Shown in pieces: positions 14,844 to 56,717 of a stretch of 64,000 nucleotides of DNA. The stretch covers positions 806,001 through 870,000 of the forward strand of contig NZ_CP168151.1 in the NCBI RefSeq assembly GCF_026913205.2. Direction: 5' to 3'. Made by a program: the position numbers and the translations under genes. Below the pieces are notes generated by a model. It was not told the DNA's origin, did not search any database, and worked only from the letters and a program-made list of their open reading frames with translations. This DNA is from Lentilactobacillus sp. SPB1-3. Its GTDB lineage: Bacteria; Bacillota; Bacilli; Lactobacillales; Lactobacillaceae. Each line of letters begins with the position of its first letter. Positions within the stretch are counted from its first letter, which is position 1.

Positions 14844-14915
14844 TGCGCCTGGAGGGAATCGAACCCCCATTTCAAGAACCGGAATCTTACGTGCGATCCA
14901 TTACACTACAGGCGC
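14844..14915 (-). tRNA. tRNA-Arg (anticodon CCG)
   Basis: A cloverleaf forms on the minus strand: acceptor GCGCCTG/CAGGCGC, D-stem GTGT/GCAC, anticodon stem TAAGA/TCTTG with loop TTCCGGT (anticodon CCG, reads CGG), and T-arm with TTCGATT loop. 72 nt; CCA is not encoded. A promoter and a terminator bracket it, so it is a single-gene unit. Confidence 0.92.
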
Positions 14916-14992: not shown

Positions 14993-15006
14993 TGAAAACG
15001 GTTACA
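14993..15006 (+). promoter_or_regulatory. cre site (CcpA) upstream of gap
   Basis: TGAAAACGGTTACA matches the cre consensus TGWAANCGNTNWCA at every position. Its centre is about 54 bp before the start predicted from the promoter at 15020-15047, the spacing known for CcpA-activated acetate genes in Bacillus. Confidence 0.7.
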
Positions 15007-18487: not shown

Positions 18488-19840
<1,353 letters not shown>

Positions 19841-41764: not shown

Positions 41765-42832
41765 ATGGTAGAAGAATATAAAGTTAAAGTTGAAAACGTT
41801 ACAAAGGAATATGATTTATTCAAGACTCAATCTGAAAAGTTGAGATCATTCTTTTCATTAAAGAGTCAACGACAAATTCCTCATTTCTGGTCATTGATGG
41901 GTATCTCACTAACCATCAAACCAGGTGAGACAATGGGGCTTATTGGAGTTAATGGTTCAGGTAAGTCAACTCTTTCAAACATTATCTCTGGAATCATTCC
42001 ACAAACTACTGGCCAAGTTGATGTTAAAGGTGACACTTCAATCGTTGCCATTCGGGCAGGACTTAGAAATAAGTTAACTGGTCGAGAAAACATCCGTCTT
42101 AAATCTTTGATGCAAGGAATGACCAATGAACAAATCGACGAAATGATGCCAGATATCATTTCATTTGCTGATATTGGTGACTTCGTTGATCAACCAGTTA
42201 AAAGTTATTCAAGCGGTATGCGCTCTCGTTTAGGATTCGCAATCGCTGTTCATATTGATCCAGATATCTTAATCATTGATGAGGCACTTTCTGTTGGTGA
42301 TGATACCTTCTATCAAAAATGTGTTGACAAAATCACAGATTTCAAGAAACAAGGCAAGACTATCATCTTTGTTAGTCATTCATTAAAGCAAATTCAAATG
42401 CTTTGTGACCGTGTTGCATGGATTAACTATGGTGCTTTAAAGATGGTGGGACCAACTGATGAGGTTACTGAAAAGTATCATGAATTCACTCAATGGTTCA
42501 AAGGTTTAAGTAAAAAAGAGAAAAAGAAGTTCCAAAGCGAACAAAAGAACATTCAAAAGAACTTTAGTATTAAAAAGTATCAACAGGAAGTTACTGAAGA
42601 ACATCAAAAGGATAATCCAGAAGATAAATCAATACCTTCTAAGATCAATAAATTGTTCTATGGCTCTGTAATTTCTGAAAAGATGTCAGTTGCCAATCAA
42701 ATTTTGACATGGGTAGTTTTGATTGCCTTAGTCTTCTTCTGTTTAGTTAACGTTTCAGGTTATTCAGTTGCACATATTGTTTCTAATCCGCACTTATTGT
42801 TTAACCCAACTCACACGTTGCATCTTCCATAA
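41765..42832 (+). CDS. tagH: Teichoic acid export ATP-binding protein TagH
   Basis: ABC ATPase of the polysaccharide/teichoic-acid exporter class, 355 residues. Walker A GVNGSGKST (near residue 61), the signature YSSGMRSRLGFA and Walker B ILIIDEALS are present. After the ATPase (about 1-245) comes a Lys-rich linker and one membrane helix (about 313-335), as in Bacillus TagH. ATG 41765 follows AGGAG. The permease TagG, usually adjacent, is not in this window. Confidence 0.9.
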   Translation: MVEEYKVKVENVTKEYDLFKTQSEKLRSFFSLKSQRQIPHFWSLMGISLTIKPGETMGLIGVNGSGKSTLSNIISGIIPQTTGQVDVKGDTSIVAIRAGLRNKLTGRENIRLKSLMQGMTNEQIDEMMPDIISFADIGDFVDQPVKSYSSGMRSRLGFAIAVHIDPDILIIDEALSVGDDTFYQKCVDKITDFKKQGKTIIFVSHSLKQIQMLCDRVAWINYGALKMVGPTDEVTEKYHEFTQWFKGLSKKEKKKFQSEQKNIQKNFSIKKYQQEVTEEHQKDNPEDKSIPSKINKLFYGSVISEKMSVANQILTWVVLIALVFFCLVNVSGYSVAHIVSNPHLLFNPTHTLHLP

Positions 42833-42837
42833 AAATA

Positions 42838-42862
42838 AAGGGGCCGAAAGGCTTTTTTTATT
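42838..42862 (+). terminator. Terminator after tagH
   Basis: Short GGCC-GAAA-GGC hairpin flanked by A-run and T7. Confidence 0.6.
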
Positions 42863-42870
42863 GTAGAACA

Positions 42871-42899
42871 TTGACAGCGCTTACACTAAAATGTATATT
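42871..42899 (+). promoter_or_regulatory. Strong promoter with overlapping cre site
   Basis: -35 TTGACA, 17 bp, -10 TATATT. The cre TGACAGCGCTTACA (42872-42885; reverse complement TGTAAGCGCTGTCA) fits the consensus fully and overlaps the -35, so CcpA should repress. Confidence 0.8.
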
Positions 42900-42903
42900 G
42901 ATA

Positions 42904-42987
42904 GGTAGGTAATATATCAATACCTTCTAAATCAATTCTCTTTCTCTCTTGTAGCTGGTGGGGTTTATCCCATCAGCTATTTTTTGT
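42904..42987 (+). ncRNA. Candidate catabolite-controlled small RNA, about 80-85 nt
   Basis: The unit runs from a consensus promoter to an intrinsic terminator and holds no reading frame with a ribosome site. A 5' hairpin (AGGTA/TACCT) is followed by a single-stranded pyrimidine run, TTCTCTTTCTCTCTT (42936-42950), and then the terminator stem TAGCTGgTGGG / CCCAtCAGCTA with T6. CU-rich single strands of this kind pair with purine-rich ribosome sites in known Gram-positive sRNAs such as RsaI (also CcpA-controlled). Alternative: an attenuated leader of the 102-residue gene downstream. Confidence 0.55.
42952..42986 (+). terminator. Terminator of the candidate small RNA
   Basis: 10-bp stem with one bulge pair (TAGCTGGTGGG / CCCATCAGCTA), GTTTAT loop and T6. 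Confidence 0.85.
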
Positions 42988-43024
42988 ATAATTAATGTTA
43001 ACGATATTAAGTGGGTGACTGAAA

Positions 43025-43333
43025 GTGAAGAATAATGAAGAACTAACTTTAATTGAAGAAATTACTAGAAACGATGGGACTAAATACATTGAAATCAGCA
43101 ACATGGTACAGAACGGTAGGGCTGAGTTGGCAGCTGAACGAGGATTTATCAAAGAAGTACGCATCTTACAGTTAAACATTCCACATTCAGTTCACGTGGA
43201 AAAGTATCAGCAATACATCAATGAAAACTTTGAAATGCCAGATGAAAGCATGGATCACTTTGATGAGTGGACTAAGACCGACGAAATGCAGGATGAGATT
43301 ACCGCGATTTTGAAGGAAAATCATATCGGTTAA
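43025..43333 (+). CDS. Small acidic protein of unknown function
   Basis: 102 residues, start GTG 43025 after GGGTGA. No signal peptide, membrane span or known motif was recognised. Composition is acidic, with predicted helices at both ends (NEELTLIEEITRNDG and DEMQDEITAILKEN). It follows the small-RNA terminator by 38 bp; TATAAT at 42987 could act as its -10, but no good -35 accompanies it. tRNA-Asn follows with its own promoter. Confidence 0.7.
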   Translation: MKNNEELTLIEEITRNDGTKYIEISNMVQNGRAELAAERGFIKEVRILQLNIPHSVHVEKYQQYINENFEMPDESMDHFDEWTKTDEMQDEITAILKENHIG

Positions 43334-43361
43334 ATTAAATTAGAAAACGATGAAAAAATGA

Positions 43362-43390
43362 TTGCAAAGATTATCATTCCATGGTATAAA
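43362..43390 (+). promoter_or_regulatory. Promoter of tRNA-Asn
   Basis: -35 TTGCAA, 17 bp, -10 TATAAA, 25 bp before the tRNA. Confidence 0.65.
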
Positions 43391-43415
43391 TATATCATAG
43401 CTTTCATTAATTCAT

Positions 43416-43487
43416 TGCTCTGTAGTTCAGTGGTAGAATAATTGACTGTTAATCAAGAGGTCGCTGGTTCGAACCCAGCCAGAGCAG
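43416..43487 (+). tRNA. tRNA-Asn (anticodon GTT)
   Basis: Cloverleaf with acceptor TGCTCTG/CAGAGCA, D-arm GTTC/GAAT, anticodon loop CTGTTAA (GTT), T-arm GCTGG-TTCGAAC-CCAGC and discriminator G. 72 nt without encoded CCA; bracketed by its own promoter and terminator. Confidence 0.95.
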
Positions 43488-43491
43488 TTAT

Positions 43492-43536
43492 AAATAATAA
43501 GGATATCTCTACTTGGTAGGGATATCCTTATTATTT
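43492..43536 (+). terminator. Terminator after tRNA-Asn
   Basis: Long stem AATAATAAGGATATC / GATATCCTTATTATT with TTTT tail. Confidence 0.8.
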
Positions 43537-43699
43537 TCACATTGAAGCATAGGTATTACTAAATAGTAATTTGAGTATAAATTATAGAATGCTTATAATT
43601 ATTGGAAGGTAATAATAATTATATTGAATTTGTCTTAGTTACATATAGCAATAATCAAAATAATTTTAATTTACTCTAGAATGACTGAATTAAGTAATA

Positions 43700-43733
43700 A
43701 AAAAGCCAGTCTTCATCAGTAGAAGATCGGCTC
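43700..43733 (-). terminator. Terminator after the DUF960 gene
   Basis: Minus-strand stem AGCCGATCTTC / GAAGACTGGCT followed by T6. Confidence 0.7.
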
Positions 43734-44042
43734 TTAAAGATTAATTTCATTAGGTGTGGCAATTAATTGTTGTTCACCACTGTCATAGACCACGATTGAT
43801 TGTGGGTAATCAGTGGTATATGGATATGGCGAATCAAAGGTAGCCACGATTTCGTTATCTTGTAAAAAGTCATATGCTAATTGGCCATCATTGTTGATTA
43901 GGTTGAATGTTACCAAGTTTGAAAGTGGGAAGACTCCCTGTAAGTCATTATCAATAATGAACCACACGTTATCAATTGCTTGGTCTGGCATTGAAGAAAC
44001 AATGCTATAACTGGCAAATCTTGCCTGAGTTCGATCAAACAT
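43734..44042 (-). CDS. DUF960 family protein
   Basis: 102 residues. The N-terminus MFDRTQARFASYSIVSSMPDQAIDNVWFIIDN is characteristic of DUF960, a small protein family of lactic bacteria without assigned function. No signal peptide or membrane span. GAGGTGAT precedes the ATG. Monocistronic, downstream of licD on the same strand with 74 bp between. Confidence 0.85.
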   Translation of the reverse strand: MFDRTQARFASYSIVSSMPDQAIDNVWFIIDNDLQGVFPLSNLVTFNLINNDGQLAYDFLQDNEIVATFDSPYPYTTDYPQSIVVYDSGEQQLIATPNEINL

Positions 44043-44116
44043 ATAATCACCTCGTATCTTGTTGTTTTATTAATTTCAAACTACCAAAAATGAATAATCA
44101 TTGCAAGCAGAAGTAA

Positions 44117-44938
44117 TTATTGAGTGAATTGTTGGTTATCCATGATCAACAGATTGATATGTTTTGAAACTTGTTGATTTTCTGGTGGTAACGTCATATA
44201 GTCGTGGTAAATATTTGTTAAAACCGTATCGTAATCAGCAAAAATCGGTATTTTAGTATCTTCAAATGGAACCTCGACAATGTTGTCTAATTGTTCTGCA
44301 GTAAATATTTCTGCATCGTATTCATATTGTGAAGCAAGATTCTTGGCAATTTGCCAATTATCGTTATCATTATAAGTGCGCATGGTTTCTTCTCTTTGAT
44401 TCTTGAATTCTGCAGCTGTTGCCAGTTGTTGGTCACTAAGAGGAGAGTAAAAGCGCTTGATCGGATTATCAATGAAGTTATACCTAAGCTTTAAGTATAA
44501 TCGACTATCTAAACGTCTTATTTTTTGCATTTGAGCCCGTTGCTTTTCTACAGAGGTAGAAATCTTATCAATTGGAAAAACGTCAATGAATACGCCTTTT
44601 TTTGCATCATTGTAGTTATTCTTTTCTTCAATGTATGTGTGCCGGTTCAACAGTTTGCCATAACTCAGGGCGTAGTTGTCATCGGAGAACGGGGTTTGGA
44701 AAAAGTACTTGGTGTCGCTTAATTGAGTAGCTACGATTTGTAAGAGCTTGTCGTAGTCTTCTCTTGGAAGCCCAATGTCCATGTCATCATCCCACGGGAT
44801 GAATCCACGATGGCGAATGGCCCCAAGGAGTGTTCCACCCAGAGCAAAATATTTTAGATTATTTTTTTCGCATAAATCGCGGAAAAATTTATAACTTTGT
44901 AGCTCGATGGCTTGAATTCTTTCATTTAATTGAGGCAT
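44117..44938 (-). CDS. LicD family nucleotidyl/phosphocholine-type transferase
   Basis: 273 residues. The LicD core LGGTLLGAIRHRGFIPWDDDMDIGLPREDYDKL (about 32-66) is intact, including the DDDMD metal site. LicD proteins transfer phosphocholine or similar phosphodiester groups to teichoic acids or capsules. No choline uptake or licC gene is near, so the donor is unknown. GAAGGTGAAA precedes the ATG. It stands alone. Confidence 0.88.
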   Translation of the reverse strand: MPQLNERIQAIELQSYKFFRDLCEKNNLKYFALGGTLLGAIRHRGFIPWDDDMDIGLPREDYDKLLQIVATQLSDTKYFFQTPFSDDNYALSYGKLLNRHTYIEEKNNYNDAKKGVFIDVFPIDKISTSVEKQRAQMQKIRRLDSRLYLKLRYNFIDNPIKRFYSPLSDQQLATAAEFKNQREETMRTYNDNDNWQIAKNLASQYEYDAEIFTAEQLDNIVEVPFEDTKIPIFADYDTVLTNIYHDYMTLPPENQQVSKHINLLIMDNQQFTQ

Positions 44939-52199: not shown

Positions 52200-52303
52200 C
52201 TTGTCACTTCCTTTGTTTTCATACCTAGAATCATATTATTAATCTGGTTCCTGGTCAATTCAATGTTTAATTACTCTTGAATTTGTGATAGGATATCATA
52301 GTT

Positions 52304-52376
52304 ATGAGTTCCCGATAGGCTCTATGTATTTGATAGAGAATCCTTGTAACCATAAAAAATAATAGATGGGGGAAAG
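52304..52376 (+). promoter_or_regulatory. SMK box (SAM-III) riboswitch of metK
   Basis: The leader has the defining elements: the anti-ribosome-site strand GAGTTCCCGATAGG (52306-52319), a variable hairpin CTCTATG...GATAGAG, the core CCTTGTAACC and the ribosome site GGGGGAA (52368-52374). SAM binding pairs GGGGG with TTCCC and shuts translation of metK. Sequence and spacing agree closely with the Enterococcus/Streptococcus class. Confidence 0.93.
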
Positions 52377-52379
52377 ACG

Positions 52380-53570
52380 ATGCAAGAAAAACATCTTTTT
52401 ACTTCGGAATCAGTTTCAGAAGGACATCCTGATAAAATCGCTGACCAAATCAGTGACGCAATCTTGGATGAATTATTAAAGAAGGATCCTAACTCACGGG
52501 TTGCCTGTGAGACCTCAGTAACTACTGGATTGGTATTAGTGTTTGGTGAAATTTCTACCAACGCTTATGTGGATATTCAACATATTGTTAGAGAGACTAT
52601 CAAGCGAATCGGTTATACCGACGGCAAGTATGGTTTCGATGGCGATACCTGTGCAGTTATGGTGGCAATCGATGAACAATCACCAGATATTGCCCAAGGG
52701 GTTGATGAGGCACTTGAAACTCGTGAAGGTGATACTGATCCGTTGGATAAGATAGGTGCTGGTGACCAAGGTTTAATGTTTGGTTACGCAATCAATGAAA
52801 CACCAGAATTAATGCCATTACCAATTTCTTTAAGCCACAAATTAATGAAGCGCCAAGCTGAGTTACGTAAGAGTGGTCAGCTTGAATATCTCGGCCCTGA
52901 TGCCAAGGCAGAGGTAACTATTGAGTATGATGACGATGAAAAGCCAGTTAAGGTGAATACCGTTGTTATTAGTACACAACACGCTGATGGCGTTGATTTG
53001 GACCAAATCCGTCATGATGTGATCGAACAAATCATCAAACCAGTTATTCCAGCTAAGTATTTGGATGACGAAACTAGATATTTGATTAATCCAACTGGCC
53101 GTTTTGTTATCGGTGGTCCTCAAGGGGATGCCGGTTTAACTGGTCGTAAAATCATCGTTGATACTTACGGTGGTTTTGCTCACCATGGTGGTGGAGCATT
53201 TTCTGGTAAGGACGCAACTAAGGTTGATCGTTCAGCTAGTTACGCTGCTCGTTACATTGCTAAAAACATCGTTGCTGCCGGTTTGGCAGATAAGATTGAG
53301 GTTCAAATAGCTTACGCCATTGGTGTTGCTGAACCTGTATCAATCTCAGTTGATTCATTTGGAACTGCTAAAGTTTCAGAAGAACAATTGGTTGAAGCAG
53401 TTCGTAATATCTTCGATTTAAGACCTGCTGGAATTATCCAGATGCTTGATTTAAATCGACCAATTTATGAACAAACTGCTGCTTATGGTCACTTTGGTAG
53501 AACTGACGTTGACCTACCATGGGAACATACTGATAAAGTCAATGCGTTAAAAGATTACTTCAAGTTATAA
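52380..53570 (+). CDS. metK: S-adenosylmethionine synthetase
   Basis: Makes SAM from methionine and ATP; 396 residues. Signatures: [24 protein letters not shown] at the N-terminus, [12 protein letters not shown], and the P-loop-like [17 protein letters not shown]. The ATG lies 5 bp after the riboswitch ribosome site, so feedback by SAM is direct. A strong terminator follows. Confidence 0.98.
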
Positions 53571-56457: not shown

Positions 56458-56717
56458 CAGCAATTTTAATTTTCAAAATGATGAAGCGAATTAGTAACTA
56501 GTCAACTTTACTTCAGAAATCAAGTGGTTAATGTGAACTTGAAGAGTCAGCTAGCGAACTCATCGTGGAATGGTTAATTGAACTCAAGTAAACTAACCCG
56601 GTAGCACCGTTACAGCTTAAGAGTGTCCCTTACTTAGTAGGGGGAACATAGGTGGTACCGCGATAACTCGCCCTATAATAAGTCAGTGAAGACTGAATTT
56701 GTTATGGGGCTTTTTTG
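56458..56717 (+). promoter_or_regulatory. T-box leader of leuS (Leu, specifier CTC)
   Basis: Stem I starts GATGAAGCGAATTAGTA (56479 onwards, with the AGTA bulge) and closes with GAACTCATC; the specifier CTC at 56559-56561 sits in the usual GAA-NNN-A context and encodes Leu. The T-box AGGTGGTACCGCG is at 56650-56662. The competing terminator is GCCCTATAATAAGTCAG / CTGAATTTGTTATGGGGC with T6 (56669-56717). Confidence 0.92.

Follow-up and report, generated by a model that had tools for sequence, protein, structure and literature searches.

The DNA analysed here (the window, 64,000 nucleotides in length, taken from a genome of 1.93 Mb) very probably contains, on comparative sequence evidence, the gene of a CcpA-controlled small RNA (sRNA). 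Comparison across genomes strongly supports it both as a gene and as a unit under cre control, and it appears to represent a new, undescribed sRNA family of the Lactobacillaceae. The fuller reading, to which we assign a probability of roughly 0.7, is that of a trans-acting antisense sRNA that is repressed by CcpA and made when the preferred sugar runs out. While such a sugar is present, CcpA bound to the promoter cre would block transcription, as the position of the operator and the biology of CcpA suggest; upon exhaustion of the sugar the promoter would become free and yield an RNA of about 80 nt that ends at its own terminator, and the exposed CU-rich tract of this RNA would then pair with a set of mRNAs at their purine-rich ribosome sites and block translation. 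The sRNA would in this way add a repressive arm to catabolite control. Catabolite control in lactobacilli has been described mainly as a protein-on-DNA system, to which a conserved sRNA whose promoter bears a CcpA operator would contribute a further level, that of RNA; the bearers include the food and gut species L. plantarum, L. brevis, L. reuteri and L. salivarius.

The sRNA locus and its predicted catabolite operator

The order at the locus is a tagH-like gene upstream, the RNA, a gene for a 102-residue protein (p102) downstream and then a tRNA. The sRNA promoter (42871–42899, plus strand) has the consensus form that the original prediction had described, with a −35 element TTGACA at 42871–42876, a 17-base spacer and a −10 element TATATT at 42894–42899, and it is also present in relatives. 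It is the sole promoter-like site scoring 11/12 within 42000–44400, a region in which promoter-like sites overall show no excess (10 sites versus 10.8 in shuffles).

The RNA itself occupies 42905–42985 on the plus strand, its start being placed by promoter spacing and its end by the terminator, and the covariance model R1 matches the same interval with 80.7 bits, a score that is not independent because the training set of R1 includes the window's own copy. Three elements follow one another on the plus strand: a 5′ hairpin (AGGUA ... UACCU, 42907–42925), supported by fold and alignment; an unpaired CU-rich tract (AAUCAAUUCUCUUUCUCUCUU, 42930–42950), which holds the invariant core and is the presumed seed; and an intrinsic terminator (42951–42985), in which a stem of 13 pairs (42951–42980), supported by covariation, is followed by a T run. 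No frame of 30 aa or more occurs inside the RNA, and the description of about 80 nt without a translatable frame, followed by a strong terminator, was confirmed. The predicted 80-nt RNA folds at −22.9 kcal/mol (z −5.7 versus shuffles) with the CU tract unpaired. Predicted folds also support the single-stranded CU-rich segment that had been claimed between two hairpins: in the ensembles of 119 members among the matches listed, the mean unpaired probability of the tract was 0.90 (lowest 0.33), at least 18 of its 20 bases were open in 69 of 118 minimum-energy folds, and a 5′ stem of at least four pairs formed in 116 of the 118 foldable members, the same 116 having both stems.

The CcpA operator (TGTAAGCGCTGTCA, 42872–42885) lies on the minus strand, overlaps the −35 element and matches all 14 positions of TGWAANCGNTNWCA, which we take to be the cre consensus for scoring, so that the perfect cre proposed over the −35 is real (read on the plus strand, the site scores 13/14). 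A 14/14 cre occurs at one other place only in the 64 kb, at 14993–15006, where it reaches 14/14 on both strands and adjoins a tRNA (14844–14915). When both strands were scored in the comparison of 119 named loci among the matches listed, a cre of at least 13/14 overlapped the promoter in 118 (105 at 14/14 and 13 at 13/14), against 0.5% with 13/14 and none with 14/14 in 2,380 letter-shuffled upstream stretches. Judged by its distance from the core, the cre sits on the −35 in 96 of these 119 loci and on the −10 in 23; two of the latter are Liquorilactobacillus (L049 and L108), the rest bear the name Limosilactobacillus or older or unresolved record names, and other members of both Liquorilactobacillus and Limosilactobacillus retain the cre on the −35. 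In a genome of a different genus (G027) the cre, read from the sequence, is likewise on the −10. The operator seems to have moved more than once while the RNA stayed unchanged. A cre that lies on the −35 or on the −10 according to lineage, with an RNA core that does not change, suggests that CcpA control itself has been selected, and would be an unusually clear sign of selection on sugar control as such.

The source genome encodes CcpA above the curated cut-off, and ccpA was found above that cut-off in all 14 sampled RNA-bearing genomes (the source genome included) and in 15 of the 21 sampled genomes without a found copy of the RNA. Since most of the sampled RNA-less genomes have ccpA, the RNA is not needed for CcpA function.

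Conservation and distribution

The tract AUCAAUUCUCUUUCUCUCU is identical in every copy examined. In an alignment of 22 copies from the genus, the 20 middle bases (AATCAATTCTCTTTCTCTCT) are the same in all rows; the terminator varies between most species yet keeps its pairing, and 11 of the 16 predicted pairs have changed on both sides somewhere. Because a pattern scan selects exact copies, the core was checked separately on loci taken by the model search, and all 38 of these (from 28 genomes; a selection from the model matches, with one locus from the model's own genus) carried the 19-base core ATCAATTCTCTTTCTCTCT without a change; this core does not vary across 12 named genera.

Covariation was taken from alignments A2, from which the contig-end locus L026 was excluded, and A3, the MAFFT alignment A4 having blurred both hairpins (6 pairs predicted). 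In 81 model-aligned sequences 93.1% of pair cells were paired, and the covariation score was 0.613 versus 0.197 in shuffles (0 of 500 reached it, and slid versions of the structure gave at most 0.24), figures that are qualified by the fitting of this alignment to the structure. In the main terminator helix, eight of eight pairs change on both sides; the overall number of pairs so changed, 11, is not above that in shuffles (mean 10.0, with 116 of 500 reaching it). The 5′ hairpin is nearly invariant in its letters in the 81-sequence alignment, and in Periweissella (L032) and Pediococcus (L046) it is built from different letters.

Within Lentilactobacillus the RNA is carried by 23 of 24 genomes, and all 24 match a 501-base query that includes p102; the exception is a 1.2-Mb genome (88% complete) in which tagH is followed directly by p102 and no RNA was found. 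The genus covariance model matched 184 of 397 Lactobacillaceae genomes in 15 of 40 genera, the other 25 giving no match to R1, and the conservation across the family by which the original prediction had proposed to stand or fall was borne out in this search. The exact 21-base pattern, run over a collection of 84,980 species, returned at least 120 stretches; among the matches listed, 119 are from Lactobacillaceae (11 named genera and a few records titled Lactobacillus) and one, a Flavobacteriales stretch without comparable surroundings (L110), is from elsewhere and was excluded from every count of 119. Latilactobacillus is a twelfth genus, represented by two large plasmid records that match; the one plasmid copy examined is unannotated and has the core, the cre promoter and, right downstream, a p102 homologue (60% identity). 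A phage collection gave zero matches to the RNA. In an order-level search of 295 genomes there were 17 matches, 16 of them in Lactobacillaceae. Two weak matches of the R2 model among these were set aside as chance, one in another family of the order (G587, E 0.009), in which the tract is absent, and one in Lactobacillaceae (G081, E 0.007), where the hit falls on the terminator tail of a different gene and the tract is absent as well. Three small-genome relatives (L009 in G012, L187 in G081 and L188 in G045) have p102 behind the end of a tagH-like gene, as judged by eye, with no RNA between them; all three have ccpA, and as apparent natural losses they are usable as controls.

Predicted pairing of the CU-rich tract

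The complement of the tract is purine-rich and ribosome-site-like, and with one G-U pair it becomes GAGAGAAGGAGAAUUGAU. Mean pairing energy with the tract was −8.2 kcal/mol for start regions versus −3.7 kcal/mol for coding interiors (undefined energies were given a cap in this test), and values of −14 kcal/mol or lower were reached by 5.6% of start regions versus 0.4% of coding interiors. However, shuffled tracts averaged 3.5% at the same threshold, with 14 of 100 reaching 5.6% and 51 of 100 having a mean as low, and in its real order the tract pairs with start regions no better than its own shuffles do. As shuffled tracts prefer start regions equally, base composition accounts for the preference for ribosome sites at large, and particular partners must then be what keeps the order so strictly conserved; the case for antisense action at ribosome sites draws on composition together with analogy.

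Of the two example targets offered in the original prediction, the eno site (AAGGAGAGAAA) is present at 18506–18516 as described, but its pairing of −12.8 kcal/mol is ordinary for a ribosome site, and the MFS gene (53649) is equally unremarkable at −12.4 kcal/mol; both fall near the 25th percentile (−12.7 kcal/mol) of a background of 846 start regions. Across the 24 genus genomes the exact complement GGAGAGAAAG gave 28 matches versus 24 for its reversed control, few of them at start sites. The ideal site GAGAGAAGGAGAATTGAT, with up to three mismatches allowed, gave 83 rows in the same genomes, of which 23 are the RNA itself and 60 are other places (40 of them read individually); its reversed control gave 24 matches, and the excess is confounded by a control that is without the Shine-Dalgarno core. 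The strict ideal-site pattern was found in just 7 of 301 family genomes.

The best target lead was a gene for an amino-acid transporter (SBP_bac_3 domain in Pfam, with an open frame of about 500 residues), which recurs in three genomes and pairs with energies reaching about −21 kcal/mol; its choice was post hoc. The tests covered 30 loci, with start codons chosen by rule. Pairing at −15.5 kcal/mol or lower (the 10th percentile of the background, which was computed for a slightly different stretch) was found in 8 of 23 genus genomes, and the window's species had −8.0 kcal/mol. As a conserved target this gene was rejected, since it fails in the window's species and, in other genera, those with and without the RNA overlap. 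The nagB gene was also rejected, its 12 of 26 in a neighbour scan being a start-calling artefact that left 3 of 22 with the start fixed, and no conserved target was found across the genomes examined. A 15-base repeat (ATCAATACCTTCTAA) linking the RNA (42916–42930) with tagH codons (42628–42642) is unshared by the relatives compared and probably due to chance.

A tract order without any general tuning to start regions, and an RNA for which no conserved mRNA partner was found, would both suit a tract that is mainly a protein-binding site, by which the RNA would collect or titrate an RNA-binding protein at sugar exhaustion (KH-domain, cold-shock or S1-like proteins are examples of candidates), pairing being secondary. 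The constancy of the 19-base core over 12 named genera points the same way, and its length exceeds that of many sRNA seeds. Were the tract such a platform and not a seed, the RNA would act as a sponge under CcpA control, a kind that is not known to have a precedent. We nevertheless consider a protein site improbable: invariance is equally expected of a seed with many targets, and the available parts of PMC8383071 and PMC3091779 report, for RsaI and the csRNAs, unpaired pyrimidine-rich stretches that are directed at ribosome sites. It is likewise doubtful, if slightly less so, that the RNA is an ancestral carbon-starvation hub, held under CcpA control also in lineages with the operator on a different promoter element, whose invariant tract of 19–21 bases would serve many mRNAs or a dedicated RNA-binding protein.

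The p102 gene, the direction of control and known RNAs

The p102 gene (43025–43333, plus strand) is a neighbour of the RNA and not part of it. Among the matches listed, 109 of the 119 loci have it on the strand of the tract and within 300 bases of it, a proximity that favours the RNA being a leader or attenuator of p102, with occasional read-through from the cre promoter past the terminator. We regard such a role as very unlikely, because p102 lies 529–1249 bases off in four loci (three of Lactiplantibacillus, one of Liquorilactobacillus), and in a further locus (L095) it is found on the other side of the RNA in the opposite direction, the RNA being unchanged in each case; p102 is distant or divergent in 5 of 114 placeable loci, the remaining 5 of the 119 among the matches listed ending soon after the core. 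Moreover, p102 was found in 24 of 24 Lactobacillaceae genomes searched, and 23 of these show no RNA within 230 bases ahead of it, G027 being the one that does. A TATAAT just past the terminator (42987–42992, plus strand) is the probable −10 element of a separate p102 promoter; TGTATAAT after the terminator is complete in 18 of 23 Lentilactobacillus rows of alignment A1, cut by the alignment end in one and absent from four. The spacing and orientation of p102, together with TGTATAAT past the terminator, suggest two transcription units, and the tract opens the terminator in none of the folds examined, a non-systematic sample of the alternatives. On this comparative evidence the RNA is not an obligatory leader of p102, and gene order argues against the leader attenuator that had been named as the refuting alternative.

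The p102 protein matches neither Pfam nor NCBIfam at E 0.001, with only stray weak matches over 46 members. Its AlphaFold model is confident (pLDDT 94.2), and a Foldseek search of the PDB with it gave nothing at E 0.001; the modelled protein is possibly a new fold.

That CcpA activates, and does not repress, the sRNA promoter is slightly less probable than a leader role: according to the accessible text of PMC8414754 CcpA can activate from upstream cre sites, but cre sites overlapping promoters repress, and every cre scored by distance overlaps the −35 or the −10. It is hardly credible that the RNA encodes a small peptide, as a dual-function RNA or a plain mRNA, for although an AUG follows the tract in many genera (outside Lentilactobacillus, TATGCC usually adjoins the 3′ end of the 21-base core, as it does in 97 of the 119 loci among the matches listed), TATGCC is missing from the window's copy and from Lentilactobacillus copies, the CU tract and not a ribosome site precedes it where it is present, the short frames seen by eye vary in length and sequence between genera, and the window copy has no frame of 30 aa.

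At gathering score, Rfam 15 assigns the sRNA to no family, whether in the window or in five loci of 8 kb taken from other genera. Several known RNAs nonetheless share features with the CcpA-repressed antisense sRNA that we favour. CU- or C-rich unpaired seeds directed against ribosome sites occur in Listeria LhrC and in RsaE/RoxS of the Bacillales; the LhrC model scored 17.0 bits on the window versus a gathering score of 110, and RsaE was not among the matches listed. The 6S RNA is longer than the present RNA and structurally different from it, and an Rfam scan of the window found no 6S. The likeness to the 6S RNA of lactic acid bacteria is that of a non-coding RNA with a promoter cre, which the accessible text of PMC8414754 places at the 6S promoter in about a third of species.

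The original prediction had compared the locus with RsaI of Staphylococcus aureus (RsaOG, RF01775), and this comparison stands for organisation and falls for family membership. As far as the available text of PMC8383071 goes, RsaI is CcpA-controlled, is made without glucose and has a CU-rich stretch acting against ribosome sites. Cre control and a predicted unpaired CU-rich stretch are common to both RNAs, the cre on the promoter being present here by sequence only; RsaI differs in having another sequence and a greater length (147 model positions versus about 80 nt here). On the window stretch RF01775 scored 21.9 bits (E 0.16) or 18.1 bits, where the gathering score is 50; 20 other members gave no match at E 10, and 0 of 21 genomes rose above the cut-off, the weak hits among the matches listed all lying away from the locus. 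Kinship with RsaI, hinted at by a weak Rfam match, was not borne out. As to pairing with ribosome sites of mRNAs for sugar uptake and metabolism, which marks RsaI, the comparison gave no conserved target here, ordinary energies at eno and the MFS gene, and shuffled tracts that pair as well as the real one. The best RsaOG match among the 21 Lactobacillaceae genomes (G013:C15:88777-88853; 31.1 bits, E 0.006) is below the cut-off and off the locus.

The streptococcal csRNAs of the CiaRH regulon differ from the present RNA in their control, which is by CiaR there and by a cre here; the CiaR repeat is TTTAAG-N5-TTTAAG, and none was seen by eye in the sRNA promoter region. The likeness lies in two stem-loops with an unpaired stretch between them, which in the csRNAs is complementary to Shine-Dalgarno sequences and start codons (PMC3091779, in its available text); the anti-ribosome-site role is here only presumed, and the anti-start-codon CAU, which the same text reports for 53 of 61 csRNAs, is absent from the present tract. 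In the literature, titles and abstract openings yielded no report of the present RNA, and four spellings of its core were absent from 5.39 million open papers, subscription papers and supplements being outside the scope of that search.

Two other RNA elements were recognised in the window, a SAM-III riboswitch at 52297–52382, immediately ahead of a gene for S-adenosylmethionine synthetase (start at 52380), and a T-box leader at 56472–56678.
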